Shown here: one piece after another, positions 29,784 through 64,000 of the stretch
How positions within the stretch are numbered: the stretch's first letter is position 1
Layout of the letters: each line of letters begins with the position of its first letter
Assembly (NCBI GenBank): GCA_016784965.1
Contig: JADHTQ010000002.1
Span: 62,001 to 126,000, forward strand
DNA length: 64,000 nucleotides
From: Bacteriovoracaceae bacterium
GTDB lineage: Bacteria; Bdellovibrionota; Bacteriovoracia; Bacteriovoracales; Bacteriovoracaceae
Reading direction: 5' to 3'
Position numbers and translations under genes: made by a program
The notes under the pieces: model-generated
Databases searched by the model: none
The model's input: only the letters and a program-made list of their open reading frames with translations
Told to the model about the DNA's origin: nothing

Positions 29784-32171
29784 CTAAGGTTGTATCATGG
29801 CAGGCCTCATAGATGCATTTACTACGCCGTTTTCTAGTCCATGGAAATTTTTTCTATTATCTGAGATAATTACATTTACTTTGTTGATCTTATCATGTGC
29901 TTCATGCAGCTTATCGTACAACTCTTTTAAATTGCTTATCATTGTCTCATCCTTACTCACACCGCTATCTTTCATCTCGTTCATTGCAGTTCGATCAGAT
30001 TCTACTAACTCTGAATATTTATCAAAATTTTCGTGGAGTGATGACAAGTTTCTCACTTCATCTTTATTCATTAAAAGCTCAATTTTTGATAATCCGACAT
30101 CAAGACTAACAATCACTTTTCCTAACTGGTGTAAAAGTTGATCTGATCCTTTAATCTCTAGTTTAATCTTTTTTAAGCTGCGATCTAACCCCTCATTGGC
30201 ATCAGTATTCCTTTGAAATATCAGTGCTTGATTTAAAGATTCAATAATCCGGCTTTTAAAATCTTCTATCTGTGCCTTTAAATTTTTAATGGTATCTCGT
30301 ACATCAGTTACTTTTTCAAATGCCATCTTATTGTCTGAAACAGAGTTGGTTAGGTTGGTGGTGTAGTCGATTAATTCATTATAATTTTTCAAGACATGCC
30401 CAGATGTTGTTATACTATTGTCAGTTAAGTGTTCAACATCTCCTCTTAATTCTAAAATGGCAATAATACCCTCTTTGGCCTCAACAAGTTGCCTTAGGGC
30501 CCCTGCATGTAAGTTTGCTTGATCATTTATAAGGTTTTGAAGATCATCCATGGTTTTTAGTTGGTCAAAGAGACTATTTTCAAGACGCTCTACCTCATTT
30601 AAAAGGCCCACTTTCTGCTGTTCGACATAGTAATTATAATCAAGGAATTTACCATATAATTGTGGGATCCCTGCATTTTCAAAGTCTACTTTAATTTTCT
30701 CTCGAAATTTTTCAGTAAATCCGTTAGAGCTTAAGGCCTCGAGGGTTTTATTAAGTGGCGTAACCATCGATTTGGTCTGGTTTGTAATTGTTTCTTCAAG
30801 AGAGCGCAAGGGATAGAAGAAAATCATGATTTTCTTTTGTTCGGCATACTCAATTGGCGCTACATACATCTCATATGGCACCGATGTCTGGTTTAGTCTC
30901 GTTCTAATTTGAATCTGGTATATACCTGCAATTCCCTCATTTAATGCCGATAGCACAGGATCATACTCTCCTAGATTGGTAAATTTTTGCAAATAATCCC
31001 AACTAATGGATGCGTCACTATTATCAAGGTTCTCTAAATCCCAGTTTTCATAAAAAAGTTGATTGGCCCAAACAATATTGAGATTGTAATCCAGCAGTAG
31101 ATAAGAAAAAGGAATCGCCTCCTGAAAAATTGACCCAAAACTCATTCGTTTTTGCACATACTCATGGTATTTTTCTAACTCTAATTTAAAAGATTTAGAA
31201 AGTAACTTGTCATCTAAGTTGCTTTCAAGTGGGATAATTCCTTCTTTTAAGGTATCTATCACAAATTGTTCACCTCTTCTTAAGTTAGTCTTTGCCTCCA
31301 TCTTGGTTAAATATAACCCAAATGCAAATGATGCTATTAACAAACAAGTCAAACTAATTAGGATGTAAAGAAACCACTTGGACTCTTTTTCCATCTGTAT
31401 TTTTTTGTAGGCTACCTGTGGAGTAACTTTATTCAACCAAGCTTTAAAGTTTGTTTGACATTTTGTAAATACAGCGTTGAACTCCTTTAGTCCTGATAAA
31501 TATTTATTGATCATTTGTTGCTCAGTTTTTAGTGTTTTAAGCTTTAAAATAATTGAGTTTTTATCCTTCCTAGACAGAACTGAAGCCTCTGTAACATTTC
31601 TCATTATCCGGATATCTTGTGTTATGCCTCTATCTAGCGCTTTTAATCGCTTATAGCTAAATCTATTTACATTAAGCTTCTTTCTTTTATTAATTTTTGA
31701 TTTTGCCCTTTTTGCTATCCTTGTTAGAGTTCTCCATCCATTTGAAACAACGAGGTTTTCAAAGCTAGTTACTTTACTTAACAAAACACTCATAATGGAA
31801 GATAGTTCTGGAAACGAAAGCAAAACATTTAACTTCTTTTTCAACTCTTTAAATGAAGTCTGAAATTCCTTATATTCTGCCTCATGGTCATAAATTTTAT
31901 TTATAGCACTTGTATTTTTCTCAATATTGCCAAGTATTTTAACAGCTCTTCTGATTTGGGAATTATTGGCAAGCTTACCTAGTTCTTCAATACTATTTCC
32001 CTTGGAAAAAGCATCAATTTTTAAAGAGGTCTCATATACTAAACCAACATTTGAAAAGTTTAGTTTTCCTGCAAAAACATACAGGTATATCCCATGCACC
32101 ACCATTGCAAGAAGTACAAGAATGATAAATGAATAGTAGTAATTGGCCCTCTTTGCCAGTTTCAATGACAT
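29784..32171 (-). CDS. Large membrane sensor-like protein with PAS-like and coiled-coil parts
   Basis: A 795-residue protein. Membrane helices at about residues 12-34 and 268-290 enclose a 230-residue helical extracytoplasmic domain. A PAS-like domain (about 350-460, with IVWANQLFYENW) follows, then long coiled coils (about 465-790) that end at the C-terminus. The layout resembles a methyl-accepting chemotaxis protein, but I do not see the conserved hairpin-tip sequence (E.I..I...I..IA.QTNLLALNAAIEAARAGE) of chemotaxis receptors. AAGGAG supports the start. It is the last gene before the flagellar cluster on the same strand, so a role in motility is possible but unproven. Confidence 0.65.
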   Translation of the reverse strand: MSLKLAKRANYYYSFIILVLLAMVVHGIYLYVFAGKLNFSNVGLVYETSLKIDAFSKGNSIEELGKLANNSQIRRAVKILGNIEKNTSAINKIYDHEAEYKEFQTSFKELKKKLNVLLSFPELSSIMSVLLSKVTSFENLVVSNGWRTLTRIAKRAKSKINKRKKLNVNRFSYKRLKALDRGITQDIRIMRNVTEASVLSRKDKNSIILKLKTLKTEQQMINKYLSGLKEFNAVFTKCQTNFKAWLNKVTPQVAYKKIQMEKESKWFLYILISLTCLLIASFAFGLYLTKMEAKTNLRRGEQFVIDTLKEGIIPLESNLDDKLLSKSFKLELEKYHEYVQKRMSFGSIFQEAIPFSYLLLDYNLNIVWANQLFYENWDLENLDNSDASISWDYLQKFTNLGEYDPVLSALNEGIAGIYQIQIRTRLNQTSVPYEMYVAPIEYAEQKKIMIFFYPLRSLEETITNQTKSMVTPLNKTLEALSSNGFTEKFREKIKVDFENAGIPQLYGKFLDYNYYVEQQKVGLLNEVERLENSLFDQLKTMDDLQNLINDQANLHAGALRQLVEAKEGIIAILELRGDVEHLTDNSITTSGHVLKNYNELIDYTTNLTNSVSDNKMAFEKVTDVRDTIKNLKAQIEDFKSRIIESLNQALIFQRNTDANEGLDRSLKKIKLEIKGSDQLLHQLGKVIVSLDVGLSKIELLMNKDEVRNLSSLHENFDKYSELVESDRTAMNEMKDSGVSKDETMISNLKELYDKLHEAHDKINKVNVIISDNRKNFHGLENGVVNASMRPAMIQP

Positions 32172-32219: not shown

Positions 32220-33170
32220 TCAGGAGATAAGATCAAAGAAGTCAATATACTTGACTTGTTCACCATGTGATGAAGCATCATCTTTTTGATAATTAGAGCT
32301 CTCACTTCCTGTGTCTCCAAAATCGCGTAAAACATCTGCAGGGAATATCTTTCCCTTCTTAGATATTATCAACGAAACTGGTCGAAATAGAAAGTTAAAA
32401 TAAAAAATATCCTTGTCTAAAGTTGCCCTACAATACCTTTTTGGAAAAAAATCGTATTTTGAAATCGTGGCGTTTTCATTTATTTCAATACATAAATGCT
32501 TAACTAACAATCTCTGATCATTTAAATCAGATAAACTGTAATTGCTGAAAGTATTTGAAAATGCTAAATAGAGTCCCAGCTCCTCCTTCATATCCACTAT
32601 GTAATGTAAGTTCTCATCATGTGTAATATCAATAAATAAGGACATTTCATAAAAAGAGGTAGATTCTGTCTCATCTAACTTATAGGTTACAGGTATATTG
32701 TTTTTAAATAGTACTACTAATAGGTCTGATATTTTATGCCGCAAGCTCTGTAGATTAAAATTAATACCTATATCACCTTTTATTTCAATCCATTTTTCAG
32801 AGAGAACCAAACTGATTCTACTCTCATATTTAATTAGGTTTATAATAGAAAAAACTGTAGGTAATACATTTAATAGTACATTCCACTTTTTAAAAGAAAT
32901 TGTACCATTTTGCTTATGGAAAATTTTCTTGCTCCCATAATTTTTCATTAGAAACGATGATATCATTTTCGAGACTGAGCTCTCCAAAAAATTAGCAATA
33001 TGTTCATATTTTTGCTCAAAAATAAATTCATTTTCTGACTTATCTTTGATTTCACCTAAATAGAAAAATGCCCTATTTATAATAGGAATCACACTGGAAT
33101 CTGCTAGCTGATAGAGATCTTCTAGCGAGTCCATTGCTTTGTGATAATCATCTTTTACAACACTTTTCAT
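32220..33170 (-). CDS. Unknown protein following fliA
   Basis: A 316-residue soluble protein without recognised domains. N-terminal 90 residues are helical, the middle is mixed, and the last 30 residues are polar. It starts three bases after the fliA stop, with no clear Shine-Dalgarno, so translation is probably coupled to fliA. It is the 3' end of the flagellar operon. Its conserved place suggests a motility or regulatory job, which is inference. Confidence 0.6.
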   Translation of the reverse strand: MKSVVKDDYHKAMDSLEDLYQLADSSVIPIINRAFFYLGEIKDKSENEFIFEQKYEHIANFLESSVSKMISSFLMKNYGSKKIFHKQNGTISFKKWNVLLNVLPTVFSIINLIKYESRISLVLSEKWIEIKGDIGINFNLQSLRHKISDLLVVLFKNNIPVTYKLDETESTSFYEMSLFIDITHDENLHYIVDMKEELGLYLAFSNTFSNYSLSDLNDQRLLVKHLCIEINENATISKYDFFPKRYCRATLDKDIFYFNFLFRPVSLIISKKGKIFPADVLRDFGDTGSESSNYQKDDASSHGEQVKYIDFFDLIS

Positions 33171-33173
33171 TTT

Positions 33174-33959
33174 TTAAACAACCATATCTTCCGGCGAATT
33201 AAATACATTTTTCAGTTTATTTCTAAGTCTCGATATTGCTTGAGTATGGAGTTGTGAAACTCTGGATTCTGTAACATCGAGCACTTGTCCAATCTCTTTT
33301 AAATTTAAGTCTTCATAGTAATAAAGTGAAAGCACTAGTCGCTGTTTTTCTGGAAGTCCAATAATCCCTTCTTTGATTTTTTCTTTGGCATCCTTGTGGC
33401 TAACAGCTGCAAATGGATTATTAACTCTATTACCTTCCATTACGCCGGCCATAAGCTTTTTATCACCTCTATTAAAAGTTGCCGACTCATCAATATTAAG
33501 AAGAGAAATCGATTTTGCCTTATTTAAAAGGTCATAGAATTCATCTTTTGAAATCTTTAATTCATTACACATTTCATCATCAGTTGCAGGTCGCCCAAAA
33601 TCTGACTCAAGTTTCACATAGGTTCGCTCAACAAGTTTTGCCTTTTCTCGAATAGATCTAGGCACCCAGTCTTGCGCACGCAGCTCATCGAGTATTGCTC
33701 CTCTAATCCTAAACTCAGCATAAGTTTTAAACTTATTATCTCTACTGGGATCAAATTTGGTTATGGCATCCATAAGCCCAATCACACCACAAGAAATTAA
33801 ATCATCTACTTCTATGTTTGCAGGCAACCTAGCCGCAATTTTTTGAGCGATGTATTTAATTAACGGTGCATACTCAATGATAATCTTATCCTTAATCTCA
33901 GGATCGAGAGTACAACGATAATCAGTAAGCTGTTTTAGTCTTTTCGAGAGAGACGACAT
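33174..33959 (-). CDS. fliA: RNA polymerase sigma factor FliA (sigma-28)
   Basis: A 261-residue sigma factor of the FliA/WhiG group. Region 2 has LIKYIAQKIAARLPANIEVDD and the FKTYAEFRIRGAILDELRAQDWVPRS segment (a FliA hallmark), region 3 the GRPATDDE stretch, and region 4 LPEKQRLVLSLYYYEDLNLKEIG with the helix-turn-helix LDVTESRVSQLHTQA. It directs late flagellar and motility genes. It follows flhG, as in many delta-proteobacteria and epsilon-relatives. Confidence 0.95.
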   Translation of the reverse strand: MSSLSKRLKQLTDYRCTLDPEIKDKIIIEYAPLIKYIAQKIAARLPANIEVDDLISCGVIGLMDAITKFDPSRDNKFKTYAEFRIRGAILDELRAQDWVPRSIREKAKLVERTYVKLESDFGRPATDDEMCNELKISKDEFYDLLNKAKSISLLNIDESATFNRGDKKLMAGVMEGNRVNNPFAAVSHKDAKEKIKEGIIGLPEKQRLVLSLYYYEDLNLKEIGQVLDVTESRVSQLHTQAISRLRNKLKNVFNSPEDMVV

Positions 33960-33973
33960 TTAGCACTCCTTCG

Positions 33974-34855
33974 CTAATGATTTTTGTGAACTTCCTGTTC
34001 CAAGTCATTTACAGGAATGTATTGCCCTTTAAGGTTTTCTAATGCAAAACCAGAAGGTACAACTATCTCCTCGGTCATCTTATTTATAACTTTATTAAAA
34101 TTTTGATGAATCATCGTATTTTCATCATTAAGTAATATCCTATCAAATCGATCAACTGCTGCTTCGCTTTTTGCAATTCCTCCCAAGATGTGTAATCTAC
34201 TCTGTAAATATGTTTCAACTGTTTCACTTAATACCTTTACGATCTTTGTATACTGCCTCTTTGAGGATACCTTGTTGACAATCAAACTGTTTTCATTGGT
34301 ACCATACTTATTTCGTAGTATTTTCATCAGAGCATACGAGTCGGTTATTGATGCTTTATCAGGCGCCACGATTATGTATCTGTGGTCACTGTAAGCATTT
34401 AAAGTCAGTGTACTTTTTGTGATCCCTGCAGGGCAATCTAGCAAAATATAATCATATTCGTGTTCATGTTCCTGAATGATGTCTATTACAAGCTTATCTA
34501 GCTCAACTCCATTTTCAAACAACTCAACATTTCCGTTACAACCAGATAAAAGGTGGAATAGTCCATCTTTATATACACATTCATCAAAAGATTTTTGAGC
34601 TGTTACTAACGAGTAAAAACTATTACTAGGAGGTAAATCAAGCTTTACATGCGTATTAGACATGTTGTAGTCACAGTCTAGTAGCAAGGTCTTTTTGCCT
34701 TGTTTTGCCAACATAATAGATAATTTAATTGCAACTGAGGTCTTCCCTACACCGCCTTTTCCACTCGTAATGGAAATAGTAGTTGCTTTTTTAGATGTAC
34801 TTGATGAGTAGCTGTTTTGCGATAATAACCAATCCCTGGCACTTGTGTTCGACAT
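33974..34855 (-). CDS. flhG: FlhG (FleN/MinD-like flagellar number ATPase)
   Basis: A 293-residue ParA/MinD ATPase. The deviant Walker A is SGKGGVGKTS (28-37), and the DCDYNMSNTHVKL and LLDCPAG segments follow. FlhG partners with FlhF to set pole and number of flagella. FlhG normally has an N-terminal activator helix DQA..LR that stimulates FlhF; here the N-terminus is MSNTSARDWLLSQNSY and does not match that motif. It lies immediately after flhF. Confidence 0.9.
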   Translation of the reverse strand: MSNTSARDWLLSQNSYSSSTSKKATTISITSGKGGVGKTSVAIKLSIMLAKQGKKTLLLDCDYNMSNTHVKLDLPPSNSFYSLVTAQKSFDECVYKDGLFHLLSGCNGNVELFENGVELDKLVIDIIQEHEHEYDYILLDCPAGITKSTLTLNAYSDHRYIIVAPDKASITDSYALMKILRNKYGTNENSLIVNKVSSKRQYTKIVKVLSETVETYLQSRLHILGGIAKSEAAVDRFDRILLNDENTMIHQNFNKVINKMTEEIVVPSGFALENLKGQYIPVNDLEQEVHKNH

Positions 34856-34878: not shown

Positions 34879-36285
34879 TTAATTTAACTGAAACATCCCA
34901 GATAATATCCTTTCTGCCGTAGCAGCTTCAATATCATCAGGAACTACCTCCCCATTTCCAAAAAACTTGTATGGTAGCCCCTCCATTTCCTGAGCGATAT
35001 TAAATAACGCTCCAAAATTGAGGCATAAATCTAGTTTGGAAACAACAATTCCATCTGCAATCGACTTATATTTCAATGCTACCTTTTTATTATACAATTC
35101 AGAGTGTATTGCACAAAGGGTAACAAATACTTCCACATTTTCAAAAGATCTTCTTAGACCCTCAATGAATTTTTTTGTATTTTCATTTTCACCATCGTGG
35201 CTGCGATAATCAATAAAAACCGATTTATTTTTTTCTTCGGCAGATCTACATTTTGCAACTATTTCTCCAATAGACGTAGCTGGAATAATCTCAATATCAA
35301 ACATTCGCTTTGCAAACATCGATGTTTCAGAAGCTGCTATATCATTTGTAATAAGTACTGAGTTTGCTTTAAGAGCTCCAAGCTTTAGCATCATACTAGT
35401 CTGCCCACATGAAGTTTCACTAAGCAGTACTGTAATAAAGGAATTCTTATTTGCATCAATTTTTGAAAACATTGGCATTTGGGTTTCAACCTCTTCCATC
35501 ATCCTATGCAATGCATACTCAAACACTGTCTCCAAGTTTTCTAATTGATCTTCACTCAATTCATACATAGAGTCTTTAATAATTTTTTGAATATATGACT
35601 CATTTATGTCTAAGCTCTTAAGAGTCGTACGCAATTGATAAATACCCATGGGTCCTTTCTTTGTCACATTTTCCAGGGCCTTTTTCATCTCAAATATTTG
35701 GGCCTCTAAATGGTCAATTTTATCTCTTTGCTCTAAATATCGCTCATCATAAACTAAGGAATTGTTTTGTGTCTCACTATATTGTGGTTTTGGATTATTA
35801 ATTGGAGCTTGAATGTGTCTATCTACACGTGGTTCAACTGGATCCTCTGCAACTGTGGCAAGGCCTGCACCACTAGCTCCCTGACTTAAAAAATCATCCA
35901 GAGCCATGCCAGTTTCTGTCTTTTGGGCCTTTATCGTCTGTACAGGCCTATTAAGTCCTAGGGCCCCATAACTAGTTTTAACAGCAGAACTTGCATTATC
36001 ACCACTGTGTTGGTCATGCTCATTAATCATACTTGAAATGTAGGATGATCTACCTGAATAAAAATCACTTTTTTGTGAATCATCTAAGACATGATCAACT
36101 TTAATTTTTTTAGTATAGTTTTTTTCAGAGATTGCAGCAGTGATCTCAATCTTCTTTTTCTTAAAAGCACCTTTTAGACCCTTATTGGTAATTGTCTTAA
36201 GGATAATTGCATCGGGACCTAAGTCTTGCTTAATTTCCTTCAATGCTTGATCAATAGTGTCTGCTTCGAATTTTCTTACATACAT
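34879..36285 (-). CDS. flhF: FlhF-like flagellar SRP-type protein with degenerate GTPase motifs
   Basis: A 468-residue protein in the FlhF position between flhA and flhG. The N-terminal B-domain start (MYVRKFEADTIDQALKEIKQ, then LGPDAIILKT) is FlhF-like. The GTPase half has the right order but altered motifs: Walker A should read G.TG.GKTT but is SETSCGQTSM (289-298) with Gln295 for the nucleotide-binding Lys; the G3 DTAG is replaced by DYRSHDG (359-365); the G4-type SKLD (416-419) remains. I checked the codons around 35395-35424: CAG for Gln. The frame is intact, so this is a conserved non-pseudogene change. It probably cannot bind GTP in the usual way. Confidence 0.85.
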   Translation of the reverse strand: MYVRKFEADTIDQALKEIKQDLGPDAIILKTITNKGLKGAFKKKKIEITAAISEKNYTKKIKVDHVLDDSQKSDFYSGRSSYISSMINEHDQHSGDNASSAVKTSYGALGLNRPVQTIKAQKTETGMALDDFLSQGASGAGLATVAEDPVEPRVDRHIQAPINNPKPQYSETQNNSLVYDERYLEQRDKIDHLEAQIFEMKKALENVTKKGPMGIYQLRTTLKSLDINESYIQKIIKDSMYELSEDQLENLETVFEYALHRMMEEVETQMPMFSKIDANKNSFITVLLSETSCGQTSMMLKLGALKANSVLITNDIAASETSMFAKRMFDIEIIPATSIGEIVAKCRSAEEKNKSVFIDYRSHDGENENTKKFIEGLRRSFENVEVFVTLCAIHSELYNKKVALKYKSIADGIVVSKLDLCLNFGALFNIAQEMEGLPYKFFGNGEVVPDDIEAATAERILSGMFQLN

Positions 36286-38385
36286 TTACAACCTCACCGT
36301 TCCAAGGGATCTGATGTTAGCATCAGGCCCTAGTTCGTTATGACTGATTACGACTAAATTAGGTATAAATTTCTCCGTTAGTCGTTTAAAGTGCCCCCTC
36401 ACTACAGGTGAACACAACACAACCATTTTTTCACCAATGTTTGTTGCCTCTTCAATTTTTTCATTGAGACTGGCCAAAATAGTTTGTGTCACAGTAGGAT
36501 CTAAAGATAATTGCTGACCCGTATCTGTCGGAATTAAATTATTTGCTATAGCTTCTTCAATTTTTCGATCTAAAGTGAAAAGAGGGATATCACCGGTGTT
36601 ACTTTTAATTCCTTCAGTAATTGTTCGATATAATGATTTTCTGGCCATTTCAGTTAGCCCCTCAGCATCCTTAATGGCCATTCCGTATTCTGCTAGTGTT
36701 TCAAAAATGGTTCTAAGGTCTCGAATTGAAACACTTTCTCTTAATAAATTTTGAAGTACCTTTAAGATAATACCCAAATGTAAAATATCTGGAATCAGAT
36801 CGCTTACAATTTTTGGATAAGTCTCTTTAAAGCTATCTAGAATTCTCACAAGCTCCTGTCTGCCAAACAACTCGTGAAGATTAGTTTTTAAGACTTCGGT
36901 GAGGTGAGTTGCCACAACTGTAGATAGGTCAACCACAGTATAGCCATTATACTGGGCATCGTCTTTTTGATCTTCTACAATCCAGACTGCTGGAAGACCA
37001 AATACTGGCTCAACGGTGTCGACTCCATCAATTTTTTCTATAATGCTACCTGGGTCCATCGCCAAAAAGTGATCACTCATCAACTCTCCACTGGCCACTT
37101 CAATTCCCTTTATCTTTATTGAGTATCCAGCTGGTCGCAACTCTAAGTTATCTTTGATCTGTACAGAAGGGATTATAACCCCCCAGTCTAAGGCAAACTG
37201 CTTTCTTATATGTCTGATTCTTTCTAAAAGGTCACCATTTTGTTCAACGTCTACCAAGCTAACGAGTCCATAACCAACTTCTAACTCTACAAGCTCCATA
37301 GAAAGAAGCTCTTCAAGTGATTCTACGGGACCTTTTTTCTCTTCAACAATTATCTCCTGTGCCCTTTTTTCTTCTTCTCTTGTACGTTTTTCAATTCTAT
37401 AGGCCGTAAATGCTAAAACACTCCCTATTGTTATAAATGGATATTTTGGCAGTCCAGGGATAATACTAAATACAAACAAAATTGAAGATGCCATATATAT
37501 GGCCTTGGGATGAATTTTAAATTGCTTACTAACTTCTTCACCTAGGGCCTTGTCACCAGAATTTCTAGTAATTATTATGGCCGCTGATGTAGATATGATT
37601 AGAGCAGGGATCTGTCCTACTAGTCCATCACCAACGGTTAGAAGGGTGAAAATTTCTGTGGCATCACTTAACTGCATGCCGTTTTGGACCATACCAACAA
37701 TAATTCCACCGATGATGTTAATCGCTGTTATCATAATACCGGCAATTGCATCACCTCTTACAAACTTTGAGGCACCATCCATTGAACCGTAGAAATCTGC
37801 TTCTTCGGCAATTTCTTTTCTTCGTCTTTTTGCCTCCTGGTTGTCAATTAAACCCGCATTTAAATCGGCATCAATGGCCATTTGTTTGCCAGGCATGGCA
37901 TCCAAGGTAAATCTTGCAGCTACTTCAGCTACTCTTCCTGCACCTTTGGTTACCACCATAAAGTTAATGATAACTAAAATTATAAAAATGATAATTCCTA
38001 CAACGTAGTTACCTTCAACAACAAATTCGCCAAATGCTCTAATTATCTCTCCTGCAGCTGATGTCCCATCACTACCACCTCTAAGTAAAATATTTCTGGT
38101 TGAGGCAACATTTAAAGATAGTCTAAACAAAGTAGTGGCAAGTAGCACCGAGGGAAATGTAGAAAAATCAAGCGGCCTTTTTGAATAGACTGATACCAAA
38201 AGGACAATTATTGAAAATGAAAGTGTCATTGATAATAAAAGATCTAAAACAAATGGAGGAATTGGAATAATCATTACCGCCAAGACGAGAACTAAACCCA
38301 ACGTAATTGCTGTCTCTGAGTTGAGTTTAAAAATTCCTATTCGTTTAAAAAATCCCTCATCCATTAACTTACTTTCGCTCCTCAA
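36286..38385 (-). CDS. flhA: Flagellar export protein FlhA
   Basis: A 699-residue integral protein. About eight membrane helices fill residues 20-325, with the FHIPEP signature region GRVAEVAARFTLDAMPGKQMAID. The C-terminal cytoplasmic half forms the cargo docking ring. The start is unclear: TTG at 38385 overlaps the flhB stop (TTGA), while ATG at 38364, with AGGAG about 12 bases upstream, would drop seven residues. Part of the export gate with FlhB, FliP, FliQ and FliR. Confidence 0.96.
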   Translation of the reverse strand: MRSESKLMDEGFFKRIGIFKLNSETAITLGLVLVLAVMIIPIPPFVLDLLLSMTLSFSIIVLLVSVYSKRPLDFSTFPSVLLATTLFRLSLNVASTRNILLRGGSDGTSAAGEIIRAFGEFVVEGNYVVGIIIFIILVIINFMVVTKGAGRVAEVAARFTLDAMPGKQMAIDADLNAGLIDNQEAKRRRKEIAEEADFYGSMDGASKFVRGDAIAGIMITAINIIGGIIVGMVQNGMQLSDATEIFTLLTVGDGLVGQIPALIISTSAAIIITRNSGDKALGEEVSKQFKIHPKAIYMASSILFVFSIIPGLPKYPFITIGSVLAFTAYRIEKRTREEEKRAQEIIVEEKKGPVESLEELLSMELVELEVGYGLVSLVDVEQNGDLLERIRHIRKQFALDWGVIIPSVQIKDNLELRPAGYSIKIKGIEVASGELMSDHFLAMDPGSIIEKIDGVDTVEPVFGLPAVWIVEDQKDDAQYNGYTVVDLSTVVATHLTEVLKTNLHELFGRQELVRILDSFKETYPKIVSDLIPDILHLGIILKVLQNLLRESVSIRDLRTIFETLAEYGMAIKDAEGLTEMARKSLYRTITEGIKSNTGDIPLFTLDRKIEEAIANNLIPTDTGQQLSLDPTVTQTILASLNEKIEEATNIGEKMVVLCSPVVRGHFKRLTEKFIPNLVVISHNELGPDANIRSLGTVRL

Positions 38386-39467
38386 TCAGTACTTATCGCA
38401 TTATTTTTTCTTCTCATGCGATAAATAAATGCTAATATCTCTGCAATTGCTTTATATAGTGTTCTAGGTACCGCTTCACCGACACTTACTGTTTTATAAA
38501 GAGTTCTAGCAAGTGGTACATTTTCTACTAACGGTACATTATTGGCCTTCGCCACTTCTCTAATTCTCATGGCCAATTTGTCTGCACCTTTTGCCACAAT
38601 CTGAGGGGAAACCATTGTTTGCGCATCATATTTTATGGCAATACTTATGTGTGTTGGGTTTGTTACTATGACATCTGCTTCTGGTACGTCGGCCATCATC
38701 CTTCTTGTTGCTATTTCCCGCTGGATCATTTTAATCTTCTGCTTAACCTCTGGAGAACCTTCTTGTTCCTTTAACTCGCGCTTTACTTCTTCTTTTGTCT
38801 GCATTATCTTCTTTTGGTAACTAAACTTTTGATAAGCAAAATCGCCAATTGCAACAACTGCAAGCCCCAATAAAATGGACATGCCTAGCTTCACTATAAA
38901 GAACTTGGTAAACAAAAATGAATTTATGAAATCTAAATGCAGCAACCCCTTAAATGTGTGCAAGTTATCTTTCACCATAAAGTAAACTATTGATATAACA
39001 ATAACAAATTTGAAAATACCCTTAATTGCTTCAACAATTGATCTCATAGTAAATAATTTTTTAAGTCCACTAATTGGGTTGATCCTTTCTGGCTTAAACT
39101 GTAGCACCTCAGGAGAAAAAAGAAGCCCTACTTGCATAATTGTGCTAATTATACCCACGCAATAGGCTACAACAAAAATCGGTGCCAAAGATTGCAGTCC
39201 AACTGTTGCAATTTTATAAACAATAGTCTTGAGTGATTTTTCAGTATATGCTATCGATGCATCAAGTGTGTAAATCCATTGTACAAACTCGTTTAAAGTT
39301 TCATACATATAAATTAAAGAAAGTCCAAGGGTTAGCACACATGCAGACAAAACTAAAACATTAGTCAGCTCTTTTGAAGAGGCAACCTCACCTCTTTTTC
39401 TAAACTGCTCTATCCGATAACTAGACGGCTGTTCTGTTTTTTCTCCATTTTCGCTATCTTCTTCCAC
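38382..39467 (-). CDS. flhB: Flagellar export switch protein FlhB
   Basis: A 361-residue protein with four membrane helices (to about residue 215) and a cytoplasmic C-terminal domain containing the self-cleavage site VTNPTH. FlhB switches export from rod/hook to filament subunits. Its stop is shared with the possible flhA start. Gap of 25 bp after fliR. Confidence 0.96.
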   Translation of the reverse strand: MEEDSENGEKTEQPSSYRIEQFRKRGEVASSKELTNVLVLSACVLTLGLSLIYMYETLNEFVQWIYTLDASIAYTEKSLKTIVYKIATVGLQSLAPIFVVAYCVGIISTIMQVGLLFSPEVLQFKPERINPISGLKKLFTMRSIVEAIKGIFKFVIVISIVYFMVKDNLHTFKGLLHLDFINSFLFTKFFIVKLGMSILLGLAVVAIGDFAYQKFSYQKKIMQTKEEVKRELKEQEGSPEVKQKIKMIQREIATRRMMADVPEADVIVTNPTHISIAIKYDAQTMVSPQIVAKGADKLAMRIREVAKANNVPLVENVPLARTLYKTVSVGEAVPRTLYKAIAEILAFIYRMRRKNNAISTD

Positions 39468-39492
39468 CTACTTAGTTCTCCTAAAAGTTAAA

Positions 39493-40272
39493 TCACATTA
39501 TAAACTGAAACCAATCCCCCAATTTTTCGGTATACATCCTATATGCAACTTGAAAAAACTCATCTGAAATAGCTGTAAACACCAATAAACCAAGGCCAAT
39601 ATTAATCACGAAACTAACCATTAAAACGTTCATTTGAGGTATAGTTCGTGCGATTATTCCCAAAACTGACATTATTAAAACATTGATAAAAATTAAAGGT
39701 GAAGCCAACATTAATGCAGACATAATTATTGACTTTCCAAATTGCACAAAAAACTCTGTGCTATGACTAAACTTTGTAAAGTTGTATACATGAATACTTT
39801 CAAAGGAATTAAATATACCCCTAAACATTGGATATAAAGCGCCTGTCGACAATATTAGGATTAAAACCGTCCATTCAATCAGTTTTTCAAATGGACCTTT
39901 TCTATGTCCTGCTGAGGGATCAAAGTACTGTAGGGCACCAAAACCCATCTGTTGAGAAATAACTGTACCAGAGGAAGTGAAAATGAACATAATGATTTTA
40001 ACAAAGTATCCTATAATTAACCCTACAATTGCATTAAATAGAGTCAAGGCCCAGAAATTATCAACTCCTAAAAATTGAATATCCTTTAAAATATGTGGAG
40101 AAATGTAATCAAAAAAAGCATAGGTTATCACCACCACTGTCAGAACCTTGGCAACTTGGGGAACAGAGACATTGCTAAAAAGTGGTAACTGAATAATAAT
40201 GGCCGATAACCTCGTAAAGGCCAACCAGAAGGCAATTAATACGGGATAATCAACTATTTGTATGTTTATCAT
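39493..40272 (-). CDS. fliR: Flagellar export gate protein FliR
   Basis: A 259-residue membrane protein with about six hydrophobic segments; the QQMGFGALQYFDPS stretch (about residues 105-118) matches FliR. It builds the core export gate with FliP and FliQ. ATGA overlap with fliQ shows translational coupling. Confidence 0.94.
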   Translation of the reverse strand: MINIQIVDYPVLIAFWLAFTRLSAIIIQLPLFSNVSVPQVAKVLTVVVITYAFFDYISPHILKDIQFLGVDNFWALTLFNAIVGLIIGYFVKIIMFIFTSSGTVISQQMGFGALQYFDPSAGHRKGPFEKLIEWTVLILILSTGALYPMFRGIFNSFESIHVYNFTKFSHSTEFFVQFGKSIIMSALMLASPLIFINVLIMSVLGIIARTIPQMNVLMVSFVINIGLGLLVFTAISDEFFQVAYRMYTEKLGDWFQFIM

Positions 40273-40541
40273 CTGCCTGACACCACCCTTGGTATATCAA
40301 TATATAATTCTCTGGTAAACGTCGTTATAGTGTCAGACATCCATGGCGCAAAAATAACTAAGGCACCAACTATTACTAAAATTTTAGGAATAAATGATAA
40401 TGTCTGCTCGTTAATTTGAGTTACGGCCTGGAAAATGGAAATTAAAATACCAGTAAATAGCGCTCCAAGTAACATTGGTGATGCCACCATAAGTGCAGTT
40501 TTAATCGCCTGGCCAGCTATTTCTGTTGCAAATCCATCCAT
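40269..40541 (-). CDS. fliQ: Flagellar export gate protein FliQ
   Basis: A 90-residue protein of standard length with two membrane helices (about residues 15-38 and 48-70) and the FQAVTQINEQTLSFIPK loop between them, the FliQ signature. It overlaps fliR by four bases. Confidence 0.95.
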   Translation of the reverse strand: MDGFATEIAGQAIKTALMVASPMLLGALFTGILISIFQAVTQINEQTLSFIPKILVIVGALVIFAPWMSDTITTFTRELYIDIPRVVSGR

Positions 40542-40566
40542 GACATCTCCTCACTTAAATTTATAG

Positions 40567-41238
40567 TTAATTAAAAGATCGAAGTATCGATCCAGTTACT
40601 AGTTGCCATCCATCTACTAAGACAAATAGTAACAGCTTAAATGGCAACGATATGACTACAGGGGGTAACATCATCATTCCCATTGCCATCAAAACTGAAG
40701 CCACAATCATATCTAAAATTAAAAAAGGCACATAAAGTAAAAATCCAATTTGAAATGCTGTCTTTAATTCCGAAATAATAAACGCAGGAATCAAAAAGTG
40801 AATTGGAACATCGTGAATAGTGTTTGGTGCTTTTTTACCGGTAACATCATAAAATAGTGCAATATCTTGTTTCCTTACTTGCTTATTCATAAACCCTCTA
40901 AGACTGAGCTGAATCACATCTATTGCCTGCGTGGTGGTAATTGTCTTTTTAAGATATGGAGCTATGCCTTTGTGATAAATTTTCATGCCAGTGGGTTGCA
41001 TTACAAAAATGGATAAAAACATTGCAAAACCGATTAACAGCTGGTTGGGCGGCAGGTTTTGTGTTCCAATTGCTTGCCTCATAAATCCCAGCACAACTAC
41101 AATTCTTGTAAAACTAGTACATAAAATGATGATTGCAGGTGCGAGGGTTATAATTGTAAAAAGTATAAGAACTTCAAGCGTATCTACTAAGTTAACTCCT
41201 TGTCCAAAATTTACGGCTACGCCGGGTAAATTTACCAT
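40567..41238 (-). CDS. fliP: Flagellar export gate protein FliP (no signal peptide)
   Basis: A 223-residue protein with the FliP motifs: APAIIILCTSFTRIVVVLGF, LPPNQLLIGFAMFL, and a C-terminal LLLFVLVDGWQLV. It begins at the LPGVAVNFG segment that in most FliP proteins follows a cleaved signal peptide, so the N-terminal signal is missing. AAGGA seven bases before the ATG and an eight-base gap to the preceding gene argue against a mis-called start. Confidence 0.94.
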   Translation of the reverse strand: MVNLPGVAVNFGQGVNLVDTLEVLILFTIITLAPAIIILCTSFTRIVVVLGFMRQAIGTQNLPPNQLLIGFAMFLSIFVMQPTGMKIYHKGIAPYLKKTITTTQAIDVIQLSLRGFMNKQVRKQDIALFYDVTGKKAPNTIHDVPIHFLIPAFIISELKTAFQIGFLLYVPFLILDMIVASVLMAMGMMMLPPVVISLPFKLLLFVLVDGWQLVTGSILRSFN

Positions 41239-41246
41239 ATATATCC

Positions 41247-42317
41247 TTACTGCAGAGGTTTTAAGTTTTTCATTTTATTTTTAATCTTCTCTGATAACTT
41301 CTCTGCTTTTGACTCTTGAGGTAACTCCACCTCGTGCTCTTTTAATTTAAAATCTTTTGGTTGCTTTTGTGCACTTCCTAGGGATTGCTCAAAGTTTGTT
41401 CCACTGATTGACTGCTCGCCGTCTTTAAGTAGCCCTGCTACACTACTAATCTCAGATAAAAAATGCATCCCTTTATCATCTGCGCCGACTAAGAATACTT
41501 GTTTGTGTGCCTTGATTAACATTAAGCTCTTTTTAGGTCCGATATAGGTTGTATTTAAAACAGATATTGCTTCCATATTGTCAAATAGAGCAAGCTTCCC
41601 TCTTTTCATAACCCCTTTTTTAAGTAAATTTACCACTCCATAAAAAAGCAGAAGAACCACCGCCAAAAAACCCGCAAATTTCATCACATAATTTACAATA
41701 GAAAATTTTCCACCATCTTGGTTGCTGCCAAATTGGTCTTTCTCATTGGCAGATAAAATCCTTTTAACCTCATCTTCTTCTACAACCTTGGTCTGTTTTT
41801 TGTCTTTGATTAATTCGTTTAGATAACTCTCATCATATTGAGGAAGTTTTTCCTTACTTGCTTTTGGGCGATTAACACCATCATTCTGCGCCCAACTTTT
41901 TGATCCCCTTGGTATATAAATTTCTATTTTTCCATTATCATAATTAAGAGCTACCTTATCTTCTTTTCCCTTGAGCGAAAATGGCACTAGGGCACGAACT
42001 CTTACAACTTGCTTATCATACTGATATGCCATAATAGTGGTATCAAACCTGCTGCCTCCGGTAGTTATTTTCTTTTCTATTTTGGGCCACACCACCGATT
42101 GAGGTATTGACACTTGAACAATACTGCTTCCTGCTTTATTTAATGAATTTTTAATCAAAAGCTTTGGCTTACCTTCAATGGCCCCTTGATATAAAACAGA
42201 TATCTTTGCCGTTGCATTTGAAATCAAACCATGCTTTATATCAGTGATTTTCACTTTTGCAAAAGCAGAGAGGGTTAAAAGCATTGAACAAATGTAAACT
42301 AATAATCTCATAACCAT
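41247..42317 (-). CDS. fliO: Extended FliO-like export protein
   Basis: A 356-residue protein, much longer than typical FliO (about 100-150). A signal peptide (residues 1-20, ending AFA) leads a beta-rich periplasmic domain of about 120 residues resembling an AMIN domain (pattern with VVRVRALVPF and KIEIYIP), then a charged linker, one membrane helix (about 212-232, MKFAGFLAVVLLLFYGVVNLL), and the small cytoplasmic FliO domain (ISVLNTTYIGPKKSLMLIKA, QVFLVGAD). The AMIN assignment is tentative. Two ATGs six bases apart (42317 and 42311) are possible; the second has better spacing to AAGGAAGG. Place between fliN and fliP confirms the identity. Confidence 0.85.
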   Translation of the reverse strand: MVMRLLVYICSMLLTLSAFAKVKITDIKHGLISNATAKISVLYQGAIEGKPKLLIKNSLNKAGSSIVQVSIPQSVVWPKIEKKITTGGSRFDTTIMAYQYDKQVVRVRALVPFSLKGKEDKVALNYDNGKIEIYIPRGSKSWAQNDGVNRPKASKEKLPQYDESYLNELIKDKKQTKVVEEDEVKRILSANEKDQFGSNQDGGKFSIVNYVMKFAGFLAVVLLLFYGVVNLLKKGVMKRGKLALFDNMEAISVLNTTYIGPKKSLMLIKAHKQVFLVGADDKGMHFLSEISSVAGLLKDGEQSISGTNFEQSLGSAQKQPKDFKLKEHEVELPQESKAEKLSEKIKNKMKNLKPLQ

Positions 42318-42345
42318 CCTTCCTTCAAGCCTAAAATTTAAATTT

Positions 42346-42759
42346 TTAAGCTTTTAGAGTCTCAATCCTTTCTATCGGACTAACAATTTCAGTTAGGCGA
42401 ACTCCAAACTTTTCATTAACAACAACAACTTCTCCTCGGGCAACAAGTTTGCTATTAACCATTATTTCAAGTGGTTCACCTGCTAGTTTATCTAGTTCTA
42501 GGACAGATCCCTGTCCTAACTGGAGAAGTTCTTTTATGATTGAAGTCGTTCGACCTAGCTCAACAGTAACCTTTAGCGGTATATCTAAAATAAAATCTAG
42601 GTTTTGCACCTTCAGCTTGTTGAGGGCATCATCACCGCTTTGAACTTGGTCAGCAAGTTCTTTGATTTTTATTTCATGAATCTCAGCAAGCTTTTCTACC
42701 TTTTGATCTTCTTCATTTTCTTTTGTAGCATCTTCTACATCACTCATAAGTTCATCCAT
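42346..42759 (-). CDS. fliN: Flagellar switch protein FliN
   Basis: A 137-residue protein. The N-terminal 45 residues are acidic; the C-terminal 80 form the SpoA domain ([56 protein letters not shown]), as in FliN. It forms the C-ring with FliM and FliG. Gap of six bases after fliM. Confidence 0.95.
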
Positions 42760-42765
42760 TTTTTG

Positions 42766-43770
42766 TTATTTATCGGCCCCAAGAACCTTTGTTACTTGAA
42801 CCGCTCTATTTCCTTTAAAAACACCAATTAAACATTTCATTTTATCAACCCCTTCGATTGAAAGGGTTACCTCACCAGATGCTTCCTGGTTTAGTGGAAT
42901 AATATCTCCTACTTCCAACGTAATTAAATCTCCAATGGTCATTTCTGCCTCGCCAAGCTTTACGACCATGGTTGCCTTTGATTCATTGATGTGGCCATTT
43001 ATCGCATTTGTCCAAATACTATCGGCCATATCGTTATCGGTTTGGAAGCTGGAACTTAGTTTTTGTTTGATTGGCTCTATGGTGGAGTAAGGTATTACCA
43101 CCATAATGGTTCCAGACGCCGCTTCAAATTCGACCTCTAGGGTCGTAGCAATAATAACATCCGAAGGTGGAACCACTCCTACAAATTGTGGATTAATTTC
43201 AGTACGCAAGTATTGGGCATCAATTCTATGAACAGGTGTCCATGCCTCTTCTAAATCACCAATTGCCATATCCATAACTTTCTTCAAAAAAGAAAGCTCA
43301 ATTTGGGTAAATTCCTTTCCCTCAATTTTTGTAAATGGTCTGTCGGTACCACCAAAATAGGAGTCAATTATGGCGTACGCCAATTTTGATTCAAAAACCA
43401 AAAGAGCAGGGCCTCTTAGCTCGTTAAAGCGCATAATACACATACAAGATGGGATCGGTAGAGTGTTGACAAATTCACCAAACTTCAATAGGTCCGTAGA
43501 GATCATTGAAATTGTTGATATTTTTCGAAGCGAATTTGATAAAGAGACTCGAAACGATCTGATAAAGCGCTCATAGATGATTTCCAAAATAGGCATTCTG
43601 CCACGAATTACTCTGTCTTGGTTGGTTAAATCATAGGGCTGTATATTATCATCACTCTCTTCATCATTATCAAATTCCGCACTATCAGAAAAATCATCGT
43701 CGTCACTGCCACCATCATTTACAGCACTAAGTAGTGCATCAACTTCATCCTGACTTAAGACTTGGGCCAT
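42766..43770 (-). CDS. fliM: Flagellar switch protein FliM
   Basis: A 334-residue protein. The N-terminal CheY-P binding motif LSQDEVDALLSAV is present at residues 5-17. A linker with many acidic residues (about 18-45) precedes the FliM core with the GGTDRPF motif near residue 137, and the C-terminal SpoA domain. The acidic linker is longer than usual. Intact CheY motif implies a chemotaxis system elsewhere in the genome. Confidence 0.95.
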   Translation of the reverse strand: MAQVLSQDEVDALLSAVNDGGSDDDDFSDSAEFDNDEESDDNIQPYDLTNQDRVIRGRMPILEIIYERFIRSFRVSLSNSLRKISTISMISTDLLKFGEFVNTLPIPSCMCIMRFNELRGPALLVFESKLAYAIIDSYFGGTDRPFTKIEGKEFTQIELSFLKKVMDMAIGDLEEAWTPVHRIDAQYLRTEINPQFVGVVPPSDVIIATTLEVEFEAASGTIMVVIPYSTIEPIKQKLSSSFQTDNDMADSIWTNAINGHINESKATMVVKLGEAEMTIGDLITLEVGDIIPLNQEASGEVTLSIEGVDKMKCLIGVFKGNRAVQVTKVLGADK

Positions 43771-43805
43771 AAATCCCCTCCTGGGATAAATGTTAATTCA
43801 AATTA

Positions 43806-44357
43806 TTATTTAATTTGAAAACCTACATAAAAAATATCGATCACACTCCCTCCAATCAAGAAAGTATTAATCGCTGACTTTATCTCTTCCTTGAGATAAC
43901 TTTTTCCTTCTCTTTTTAAAAGATCCTCAGCTCGCTTTGAGTTTAAAATACTAATAATTGTATCCCGTATTTGAGGTTTACGGGCCTTAAACTCCTCTTC
44001 ATCAGAGTCCTTGCTAAATTTCAAGACTGCATGCAGCCTTACAAAGCGTCTGGGGCCATCACCTTGAGCTAGGTTGGCGGTAAACCCCTCCAGGGCAAAA
44101 AGGATTCCATCCTCTTCCTTGGCTTCACCGGTCTGTTCAACCTCTTTATCTGTCATAGTAGCATTTATTTCGCTTTGAATGAGTTCTCGAAGAGGCGGTC
44201 TATTTGCCTCTTTCCGATAAGACATGAATTGTACGTAACCGATTCCTGCTAATAAAACAGAATTCACAATTAAAAAAATTGTAAACAAGGGGTTAGACAC
44301 AAGTTTTGCATCCTTTACCCGACTAAATTCTTCTTCATTTAATTCTTCACCGGCCAT
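43806..44357 (-). CDS. fliL: Flagellar basal-body protein FliL
   Basis: A 183-residue protein with a short cytoplasmic N-terminus, one membrane helix (about residues 25-43), and a periplasmic FliL domain (LEGFTANLAQGDGPRRFVRL; LLKREGKSYLKEEIKSAINTFL). FliL supports stator function. It is the first gene of the flagellar operon. GGTGGA just upstream of the ATG at 44357 acts as ribosome site. Confidence 0.92.
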   Translation of the reverse strand: MAGEELNEEEFSRVKDAKLVSNPLFTIFLIVNSVLLAGIGYVQFMSYRKEANRPPLRELIQSEINATMTDKEVEQTGEAKEEDGILFALEGFTANLAQGDGPRRFVRLHAVLKFSKDSDEEEFKARKPQIRDTIISILNSKRAEDLLKREGKSYLKEEIKSAINTFLIGGSVIDIFYVGFQIK

Positions 44358-46580: not shown

Positions 46581-47153
46581 ATGAAAAAACTAACAAACTT
46601 ACTACTAATTGTGCTTTTACTATCAGTTGTAGCATGTGGTGGAGAAAGTAGTGATAACAAAATTATCAATCGAGAGGCCTATAGTGGTTCTGCTGCCCAA
46701 GAAGGTGGAGTTGGTAATGTACTATCTTCAGTGTCATGTACGCAGGGTGGATCTCGCTTTGAGCTTCGTTTTTCTGCCCCTGCAAGTAGTGATAACACCA
46801 CAGTACGTGGTCCATTTACTAGAAACCACATAGCCGGTAGTGTTACCGATGTTTATGTTGGTGTAAGTAAGCAATGGGGAGATATCATGACTGTTAGAAA
46901 GCTAGCTAACAATGGTGGCTTTAACATTACCCTATCAATGTGTACATTTGGCACCTTATTACAGCCAAATTTTAACTACAGAGATATGAGGACTAACAAT
47001 AATGGAATTATACTATATGACCATGCCAATAATACACTTGGAAGCGTAGACTCCTCTTGGGTCTACCTAACTCGTGAGACATATACTCAAAACAACACAA
47101 CTTACAGAGAAGCTGTAGTTGAAACCATCTTCACAAGAAGCGACGTTAGATAA
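46581..47153 (+). CDS. Lipoprotein, first of a tandem pair
   Basis: A 190-residue protein. The lipoprotein signal ends SVVAC followed by GGESSDNK. The mature part has two Cys (SSVSCTQGGSRFELRF and MCTFGTLL). It is about 80 percent identical by eye to the next gene, with conserved blocks RFELRFSAPAS, NTTVRGPF, NHIAGSVTDVYVG and TFGTLLQPNFNYR. No known family. GGAGGAAGAG upstream is an excellent ribosome site. Sigma-54-type promoter at 46526. Confidence 0.8.
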   Translation: MKKLTNLLLIVLLLSVVACGGESSDNKIINREAYSGSAAQEGGVGNVLSSVSCTQGGSRFELRFSAPASSDNTTVRGPFTRNHIAGSVTDVYVGVSKQWGDIMTVRKLANNGGFNITLSMCTFGTLLQPNFNYRDMRTNNNGIILYDHANNTLGSVDSSWVYLTRETYTQNNTTYREAVVETIFTRSDVR

Positions 47154-47179
47154 TCAAAATTGTAAACCATTAGTAAATT

Positions 47180-47220
47180 GACCACTCTATATATAACTGA
47201 CAAGTTAGAGTGGTCTCTTT
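47180..47220 (+). terminator. Intrinsic terminator after the first lipoprotein gene
   Basis: GACCACTCTA (47180-47189) pairs with TAGAGTGGTC (47206-47215), with a T-rich tail (TCTTT) after it, 27 bp past the stop codon. Confidence 0.7.
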
Positions 47221-47342
47221 ACAAAAAACTCAACTAAAAGGCCGTAAACAGTTTTTACATATGCTCAGGTTATTAGCACCACACCTTTTACAAATCACTC
47301 AATATCTCATCTATCTTATTGAATTTTAACACAACCAGCCTT

Positions 47343-47358
47343 TGGCACGCTGCATGCA
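47343..47358 (+). promoter_or_regulatory. Sigma-54-type promoter of the second lipoprotein gene
   Basis: TGGCACGCTGCATGCA, with GG (47344-47345) and GC (47356-47357) ten bases apart, 37 bp before the gene at 47396. Its -24/-12 layout and distance match the first copy, so promoter and gene were duplicated together. Confidence 0.8.
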
Positions 47359-47395
47359 TTAAAATAAAGTATATAAGTTCAAGCTGGAGGCAAAA

Positions 47396-47962
47396 ATGAA
47401 AAGACTACTTAATGTTTTCGCAGTGCTAGTTTTACTATCGACATTAGCTTCATGTGGTGGAGACAGCTCAGACAACAAGATTGTCGACAGAGGCACCCAT
47501 AGTGGATCATTGGCCCAAGAAGATGGCGTGGGAAGTGTTTTATCTTCGGTATCATGCTCGCAGGGTGGATCAAGGTTCGAGCTTCGATTTTCGGCCCCTG
47601 CAAGTGGCGATAACACCACAGTACGTGGCCCATTTGCTAAAAACCATATCGCAGGTAGCGTTACTGATGTTTATGTTGGAGCGAGTAAGTCTTGGGGAGA
47701 TGTCATGGTGGTTAGAAAGCTTGCCAATAATGCCGGATTTAATATTACCCTGGCAATGTGTACATTTGGCACACTTTTACAACCAAACTTCAACTACCGG
47801 GAGATGAGAACAAACGGTAATGGAATCATACTATACGATCACGCAACTAATGCTGTTGGAAGTGTTGATTCTTCATATGTTTATCTAACTAGAGAGGCAT
47901 ATACGCAAAATAACACCAGCTATAGAGAAGCTGTTGTTGAGACTATCTTTGCTAGATTATAG
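47396..47962 (+). CDS. Lipoprotein, second of a tandem pair
   Basis: A 188-residue paralog of the 46581 protein. The lipobox is TLASC (L-A-S-C, consensus) followed by GGDSSDNK. The same conserved blocks and the same two Cys are present. GGAGG seven bases upstream of the start. The strongest differences are in the N-terminal 45 residues. No family recognised; export to the cell envelope and sigma-54 control are the only inferences. Confidence 0.8.
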   Translation: MKRLLNVFAVLVLLSTLASCGGDSSDNKIVDRGTHSGSLAQEDGVGSVLSSVSCSQGGSRFELRFSAPASGDNTTVRGPFAKNHIAGSVTDVYVGASKSWGDVMVVRKLANNAGFNITLAMCTFGTLLQPNFNYREMRTNGNGIILYDHATNAVGSVDSSYVYLTREAYTQNNTSYREAVVETIFARL

Positions 47963-54205: not shown

Positions 54206-54238
54206 CTCATTATCCTTAATTAAAAGTTTTTCACCTAA

Positions 54239-58897: not shown

Positions 58898-58907
58898 CCC
58901 ACCTATC

Positions 58908-63209: not shown

Positions 63210-63230
63210 CCTACATCTCCAAATTAAATT

Positions 63231-64000
63231 CTATTCCATGACATCATAGAAGATGGGGTACGCACTTTGTTTGTATCGTTGTGTTACTATTTTAAATATA
63301 GATGTTTCAGCGTTTTGATTAATTTCTGCCGTATCAAACTTCCCATCTTTTTTATTTCGTGCAAGCAAATTTCGTCTATATCTTTCTTCCGCACTAAGTC
63401 CGCCGCCTTCATTATCACCAAATCCCTCGGCGTTTATTCCTCCACGGCCATAGTCATCTTTTGAGTTACTAAAAGAGTCGCCACTGTCCATATCTCCAAA
63501 TGCGTCGCCATCACCATCGCCATAATCGTCTGAATAATCCCCATCATCGAAAGCATCTTCAGCTTTCTCTGCTTCATATGGGCCTGCAGCTGTCTTTCCA
63601 CCGCTACCGGACGAATAGTCAGATGAAGAGCCACCTGTAAGTGACCCCAAACTACCAACATTCCCCTTGGGTCCACGATACTTTCTTTTGCCCTTTGCCA
63701 ATTGCCGCATTTTCATCAACTCATCAAATTTACCATCTCTTTTTAATTTCTCTATTGAAGCCTGTCTCATCACTGCTAAAATCTTGGATCCCTTCTTTCT
63801 AACGTCCTCATCAGAAGTGAGTCCACCAAGTCTCCCATCCTGCTCCATCAGACCTTTTTTAGTCTTGTCAATTAGAGCTTTCATCGCCTCAATTTGTCTA
63901 CCCATCGGTGTGTTAGGATTCAAGGTCCCCATTTTTGATATATTTTTCATTGAGTTTCTGGCCGATGCCGATGTTGAGCCCATACCTTTTCTACCAGACT
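63231..64000 (-). CDS. C-terminal part of a fourth giant paralog (cut by window edge)
   Basis: At least 255 residues, open to the window edge. The first complete codons read SGRKGMGSTSASARNS, matching the AFTER-array segment of A (GKKGMGSSSAASAR), so the Met at 63983 is internal. Conserved GTLNPNTPMGRQIEAMK, a basic region, an acidic Gly/Asp-rich stretch, ERYRRNLLARN and the terminal IVTQRYKQSAYPIFY motif are present. It is the upstream neighbour of C with a 21-base gap. The full gene and the operon promoter lie beyond position 64000. Confidence 0.85.
   Translation of the reverse strand, partial: SGRKGMGSTSASARNSMKNISKMGTLNPNTPMGRQIEAMKALIDKTKKGLMEQDGRLGGLTSDEDVRKKGSKILAVMRQASIEKLKRDGKFDELMKMRQLAKGKRKYRGPKGNVGSLGSLTGGSSSDYSSGSGGKTAAGPYEAEKAEDAFDDGDYSDDYGDGDGDAFGDMDSGDSFSNSKDDYGRGGINAEGFGDNEGGGLSAEERYRRNLLARNKKDGKFDTAEINQNAETSIFKIVTQRYKQSAYPIFYDVME

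Follow-up and report, generated by a model that had tools for sequence, protein, structure and literature searches.

The window, a 64,000-nucleotide stretch of a Bacteriovoracaceae genome, carries a flagellar gene cluster on its minus strand. The flhF gene (34879-36285, minus strand) is located between flhA and flhG and encodes, from an ATG start, a 468-residue protein that consists of a B-core (residues 1-68), a linker, an N domain and an SRP-type G domain (residues 284-467). The earlier note had described this frame as intact, and it is indeed open. Upstream of flhF lie the flagellar genes flhA, flhB, fliR, a fliQ-sized ORF, fliP, fliO, fliN, fliM and fliL (36286-44357, minus strand). Downstream and on the same strand, flhG (33974-34855) encodes a 293-residue MinD-like ATPase with an intact KGGVGKT Walker A motif and is followed by a gene for a FliA/WhiG-type sigma factor (33174-33959), an ORF of 316 residues without an assigned function (32220-33170) and a gene for a 795-residue protein (29784-32171), also functionally unassigned, that has an N-terminal hydrophobic stretch and no significant match in Pfam. 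Gene order was compared across 58 of the 80 named family loci, namely those with at least 6.5 kb of downstream DNA and an FlhF match. In this set, flhG lies downstream of flhF at 57/58 loci, homologues of the 316- and 795-residue proteins occur at 30/58 and 57/58 loci, respectively, and the order flhF-flhG-sigma-(316)-795 is held at 56/58. A search of the outgroup loci for the same two proteins returned a single 795-type match, at L039, which is itself a family member, and most of these loci end too soon downstream. Elsewhere in the window, three very large and similar proteins of 1526, 1552 and 1433 residues are encoded in tandem (49625-63983, minus strand); they share Gly-rich stretches and, close to the beginning, a CYCLxxWQLQPSxxYA sequence. 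The tandem also includes a fourth piece of 250 residues that is C-terminal-like. Two adjacent, very similar small genes (46581-47962, plus strand) encode lipoprotein-like products of 190 and 188 residues. No RNA family was found in the window at the gathering threshold.

Does this gene encode a genuine FlhF? The window protein matches the NCBIfam FlhF model TIGR03499 over residues 1-304 with an E-value of 5.6e-17 and 62.6 bits, which is below the cut-off of 174, and the Pfam SRP54 model over residues 349-465 only (33.6 bits). A phmmer comparison with Bacillus subtilis FlhF (2px0) yields an E-value of 0.00023. The relationship is much clearer at the profile level, given that hhalign aligns the window protein with a phylum FlhF profile, built from 13 outgroup and three family rows, over 444 columns with a probability of 100 and an E-value of 4.8e-90. 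Homology to FlhF covers the B-core, N and G domains, and the gene context is also that of flhF. The window gene is a true descendant of flhF. It is the only one in its genome, since an FlhF query finds no gene other than itself; the SRP54-type matches over the cut-off comprise the window protein and two strong others (237 and 228 bits), which we read as Ffh and FtsY, so the second intact FlhF that could have undermined the earlier note's proposal is not found.

The AlphaFold model of the window FlhF has a mean pLDDT of 78.9, with values of mostly about 90 in the NG part. It superimposes on Shewanella putrefaciens FlhF (8r9r; Z 23.9, 240 residues, 2.8 Å) and B. subtilis FlhF (2px3; Z 23.9, 241 residues, 2.5 Å). 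The best PDB matches of the model are SRP-type GTPases, among which the FlhF entries rank level with the FtsY entries. The predicted fold of an SRP-type GTPase is therefore kept, although a fold shows no function. The window FlhF shares the N and G fold (Z about 24 over 240 residues), the N-terminal B-core and the flhA and flhG neighbors with the B. subtilis and S. putrefaciens proteins (2px0/2px3 and 8r9r), which represent the third SRP-type GTPase.

However, the family differs from these two proteins in the GTP-binding motifs themselves. The former Walker A or G1 motif reads SETSCGQTSM (residues 289-298; 35392-35421, minus strand), with the lysine replaced by glutamine at residue 295. The earlier note had recognized this sequence but placed it one codon off, at 35395-35424, a range that reads LSETSCGQTS. 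The former G3 motif (DTAGR) reads DYRSHDG (residues 359-365; 35191-35211, minus strand), exactly as that note had proposed. A profile alignment to other FlhF proteins of the phylum places the window glutamine on the Walker A lysine. To extend the comparison, 135 family loci with at least 180 bits to the family model were reduced to 99 distinct sequences by leaving out identical proteins. The Walker A lysine position is occupied by glutamine and the first Walker A glycine by serine in 99/99 of these sequences; relatives with a canonical GKT, which would have spoken against the change being real, do not occur among them. The G2 motif of canonical FlhF, DTYR or DTFK, has no counterpart in any of the 99 sequences, and in G3 the threonine is absent from all 99 and the glycine is present in only one. 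The G4 lysine is kept in 2/99. The window protein is one of the two, and its SKLD, which the earlier note had taken to be a conserved element, is a minority state because most relatives carry SHLD. The family does not carry the motif set of a GTPase-type FlhF, that is, Walker A GxxxxGK[ST], G2 DTYR, G3 DTxG and G4 [TS]KxD. From these sequences, FlhF of this family is very likely devoid of GTPase activity and likely devoid of a GTP-driven dimer, and we infer that it does not bind GTP.

The family consists mostly of predatory bacteria, and its named loci (80 kept out of 134) are mainly labeled Bacteriovoracaceae, Bacteriovorax, Halobacteriovorax or Halobacteriovoraceae, with Bdellovibrionales, Bdellovibrio sp., Oligoflexia, Proteobacteria and similar labels making up the rest. 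A model built from the family finds FlhF in 119/129 family genomes and in 71/73 of the good assemblies. The reading frames are nearly all open, and the two matches with in-frame stops lie on draft contigs. TIGR03499 finds no FlhF over its cut-off in any of the 129 genomes, and the control passed this cut-off in 2/14 named genomes. For the rest of the phylum, 88 outgroup loci were reduced to 77 by leaving out hits below 125 bits and identical proteins, and 75 of these were readable, as L039 belongs to the family and L208 does not contain the site. The Walker A lysine is present in 75/75. The replacement of lysine by glutamine is a single change on an FlhF tree of 87 rows (70 outgroup and 17 family), in which the family branch has a length of 2.03 and a support of 100; the point at which the family joins the tree has a support of 69 and involves long branches. 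A loss of the lysine ancestral to the phylum was considered and rejected because all 75 other proteins keep it. An ancestral loss is partly true for G3, G4 and the FlhG activator motif described below, and G3 and G4 are incomplete in other families as well. Those families (f6, f11 and f15-f22) resemble the window family in their altered G3, G4 or both and, in most cases, in an FlhG without the activator motif, but differ from it in the retained lysine. A separate group of outgroup proteins from families f3 and f22 (L045, L046, L052, L207 and L209-L212) keeps GK[TS] but has a G3 of the DSPA, DCPA or DTPS type and a G5 region unlike that of FlhF; judged by these motifs, the GTPase of this group appears to have eroded along a different path within the phylum.

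Is the altered site simply decaying? Chance or a sequencing error is excluded because glutamine occupies the site in 99/99 distinct sequences, and together with the low dN/dS the same count rules out a pseudogene, in agreement with the earlier note, for which a glutamine conserved across the clade would support a real change. Among the 25 closest of 221 family pairs, dN/dS ranges from 0.010 to 0.064 for the G domain and from 0.017 to 0.097 for the whole gene. The B-core is the best conserved domain of FlhF in the family, with a mean identity of 0.70, compared with 0.46 in the G domain. In the latter, the residues of the old site have not drifted: Q295, S289 and K301 are invariant in 99/99, G294 is kept in 98/99, S/T296 in 96/99, D359 in at least 96/99, and D419 and G445 in 98/98 each. 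We take S/T296 to correspond to the Mg ligand of canonical sites, and D419 presumably to the residue for base recognition. The G1, G3, G4 and G5 loops together average 3.06 bits, compared with 2.40 in the remaining G domain, and 0/183 circular shifts reach as high a value. This signal depends on the loop set chosen, since 12/183 shifts are as high for G1, G3 and G4, 26/183 for G1 alone and 51/183 for G1 to G5 with G2 included; all of these figures exclude the 390-401 loop, which was picked after it had been seen to be conserved. The linker is otherwise poorly conserved but contains two motifs that look like protein-binding motifs, a YGxxGLN[KR]-like motif at residues 106-112 of the window protein (91/99) and an LDDFL-like motif at residues 129-133 (97/99, by a loose pattern).

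The partner protein FlhG has changed as well. Its Walker A residues K33, G34, G35 and K38 are invariant in 29 sequences, and outside the N-terminal helix its AlphaFold model folds like FlhG/FleN (4rz3 and 5j1j), with which it thus shares both the fold and the Walker A motif of a MinD-like ATPase. In other bacteria, the N-terminal DQAxxLR motif of FlhG is reported to stimulate FlhF through its glutamine (PMC12826062). In contrast to FlhG/FleN, the window FlhG has a W-L-x-S helix in place of this FlhF-activating element: the sequence at the site is TSARDWLLSQN (34814-34846, minus strand), predicted with low confidence as a helix at residues 4-12. An adjacent FlhG could be read for 94 of the 99 family rows, the other five having none that was readable. 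DQAxxLR occurs in 0/94, and the motif with the invariant tryptophan in 93/94, with leucine next to it in 89 and serine three residues on in 79. This tryptophan motif was not seen in those FlhG N-terminal stretches of other phylum families that were examined. Outside the family, 8/57 adjacent FlhG proteins have DQAxxLR, and 8/8 of these lie beside an FlhF with canonical-type G3 and G4; 46 of the 49 FlhG proteins without DQAxxLR adjoin an FlhF with a changed G3, G4 or both. Such co-occurrence counts, which ignore kinship (the tree needs three changes for DQAxxLR), indicate that, across the phylum, a weakened FlhF GTPase is accompanied by an FlhG that has lost the activator motif, with the window's family as the extreme case. 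An altered helix next to an inactive GTPase would be expected if FlhG still docks on FlhF but no longer activates it.

FlhF has outlived the flagellum in one genus of the family, labeled g33. Three g33 genomes (G032, G105 and G107; 99, 98 and 94% complete) keep FlhF, including the Walker A glutamine, while none of the four genomes of this genus yielded a match to FlhA, FliM or FliG_C. A search for an FlhG orthologue in the same three genomes gave only generic MinD/ParA-type matches of at most 69 bits, compared with 431 in a control genome. In the fourth genome (G106, 88% complete), neither FlhF nor FlhA, FliM or FliG_C was found. In the g33 FlhF, the motif reads GQ[TS]SM and the linker is much shorter, and the gene is under purifying selection (dN/dS 0.053 for G032 versus G107). 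At the g33 loci (L236, L237 and L238), flhF lies between the gene for a small protein X and a sigma factor gene whose product is 64-65% identical to that of the window, and a 795-type homologue follows. FlhF, the sigma factor and the 795-residue protein therefore remain together once the flagellum is gone. Protein X has 169-173 residues, and its gene abuts the start of flhF at all three loci. Given that three genomes without FlhA, FliM and FliG keep FlhF, flagellar placement cannot be the only role of FlhF. FlhF is otherwise tightly tied to the flagellum, because 9/10 family genomes without FlhF also have no FlhA.

FlhF has been described as a GTP-driven switch in which GTP binding and dimerization set the site of flagellum growth. 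The earlier note held that polar targeting in other bacteria needs GTP binding. This is borne out in several species; in Vibrio alginolyticus, flagellation and polar localization are reported to be lost or reduced in most FlhF mutants of the GTP site, whereas R334A, a mutant in hydrolysis, is functional; of twelve mutants in Walker A, G3 and G4, eleven precipitated on purification (PMC6092412). It does not extend to the contact between the NG domain and the pole protein HubP in S. putrefaciens, which is reported to be GTP-independent (PMC12713375). In that organism, the structured N-terminal domain of FlhF is described as binding FliG and the NG domain as binding HubP (PMC11236974). For named Bacteriovorax species, one flagellum at the pole has been described (PMC7175336 and PMC12642874), so flagellar placement still works in the family. 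No match to FipA (DUF2802) was found in the window's genome, and the control was likewise without a match anywhere. The literature that we searched, mostly outside subscription papers, yielded no report of a pseudoGTPase or GTPase-dead FlhF family. PseudoGTPase domains are known from p190RhoGAP, which likewise has the GTPase fold without the catalytic motifs but belongs to an unrelated eukaryotic family and carries the domain inside a larger protein.

We propose that FlhF of this family is probably a pseudoGTPase, fixed and conserved throughout the clade, that acts, as the earlier note had suggested, as a GTP-independent scaffold. Such a loss of motifs could also be expected if FlhF had become unimportant in the clade and its GTPase motifs had been worn away, as the loss of G3 and G4 residues in other phylum families might suggest, but this is highly improbable for a protein that is found in 119/129 genomes, has a dN/dS far below 1 and shows invariant Q295, S289 and K301. 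A more serious alternative is that the site now binds a guanine nucleotide, or an alarmone or dinucleotide, and holds it unhydrolyzed, either as a permanently bound structural ligand or for sensing. Nucleotides may still be bound weakly or in an altered way because G294, S/T296, D359, D419 and G445 are still conserved, and the invariance of Q295 and S289 together with the conservation of the G1, G3, G4 and G5 loops relative to the remaining G domain could mean a retained ligand. We nevertheless regard this alternative as unlikely, given that the Walker A lysine, the first glycine, DTYR and the threonine and glycine of G3 are all gone and that most of the Walker A, G3 and G4 mutants in V. alginolyticus are reported to lose or reduce function (PMC6092412).

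The g33 genomes raise a different question, namely whether FlhF belongs chiefly to a module for signaling or polarity that also comprises the sigma factor and the 795-residue membrane protein, with flagellar placement being one output among others. The retention of a selected FlhF with its glutamine beside these two genes in 3/4 g33 genomes, in the apparent absence of the flagellum and FlhG, and the nearly constant gene order in the family argue for such a module. However, co-retention in a single genus may be a slowly decaying remnant, and the shared absence of FlhF and FlhA ties FlhF to the flagellum, so that we hold this explanation to be possible but somewhat doubtful.

How would a pseudoGTPase scaffold place the flagellum? 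At the stem of Bacteriovoracaceae in the wide sense, FlhF would have lost the first Walker A glycine and the lysine, the latter in exchange for glutamine, together with the G2 DTYR/DTFK motif, the threonine and glycine of G3 and, with few exceptions, the lysine of G4. The overall fold would have stayed, and what used to be the nucleotide face may now be a protein surface under constraint or a pocket that has closed. The B-core, which corresponds to the domain of Shewanella FlhF that interacts with FliG, would bind cargo, which would be FliG in the flagellated members, and the NG domain would hold the polar landmark and FlhG without a GTP cycle. FlhG would then be the regulator, as it has an intact ATPase motif and an N-terminal helix that appears to have been remade with WLLSQN for DQAxxLR. 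In the simplest reading, the clade has retained both ends of the tether and dropped the GTP cycle, leaving the FlhG ATPase as the only switch. The scaffold role and these binding partners are what we infer for the family, and the 795-residue membrane protein is a candidate for the polar partner of FlhF. As a tentative model, somewhat short of an even chance, we suggest that polar placement is achieved by a switchless FlhF and the docking helix of FlhG through the ATP cycle of FlhG alone, and that in the flagellum-less genus FlhF lives on in a module of sigma factor and membrane protein, with FlhG, FliG and the flagellum all gone. The earlier note was sound in its FlhF assignment and in its account of the motif loss, but it was incomplete, as it contained neither the change in FlhG, nor the partial loss of G3 and G4 in other families, nor the survival of FlhF beyond the flagellum in one genus.

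The GTP switch that is thought to be central to FlhF can apparently be dispensed with. A clade that has no GTP site and is nonetheless under strong selection separates the job of the switch from the job of the scaffold, and its members Bacteriovorax and Halobacteriovorax are culturable. The paired change in FlhG predicts which contact has taken over from the former GTPase-activating one, and genus g33, which has no flagellum, offers a route to the non-flagellar partner of FlhF.
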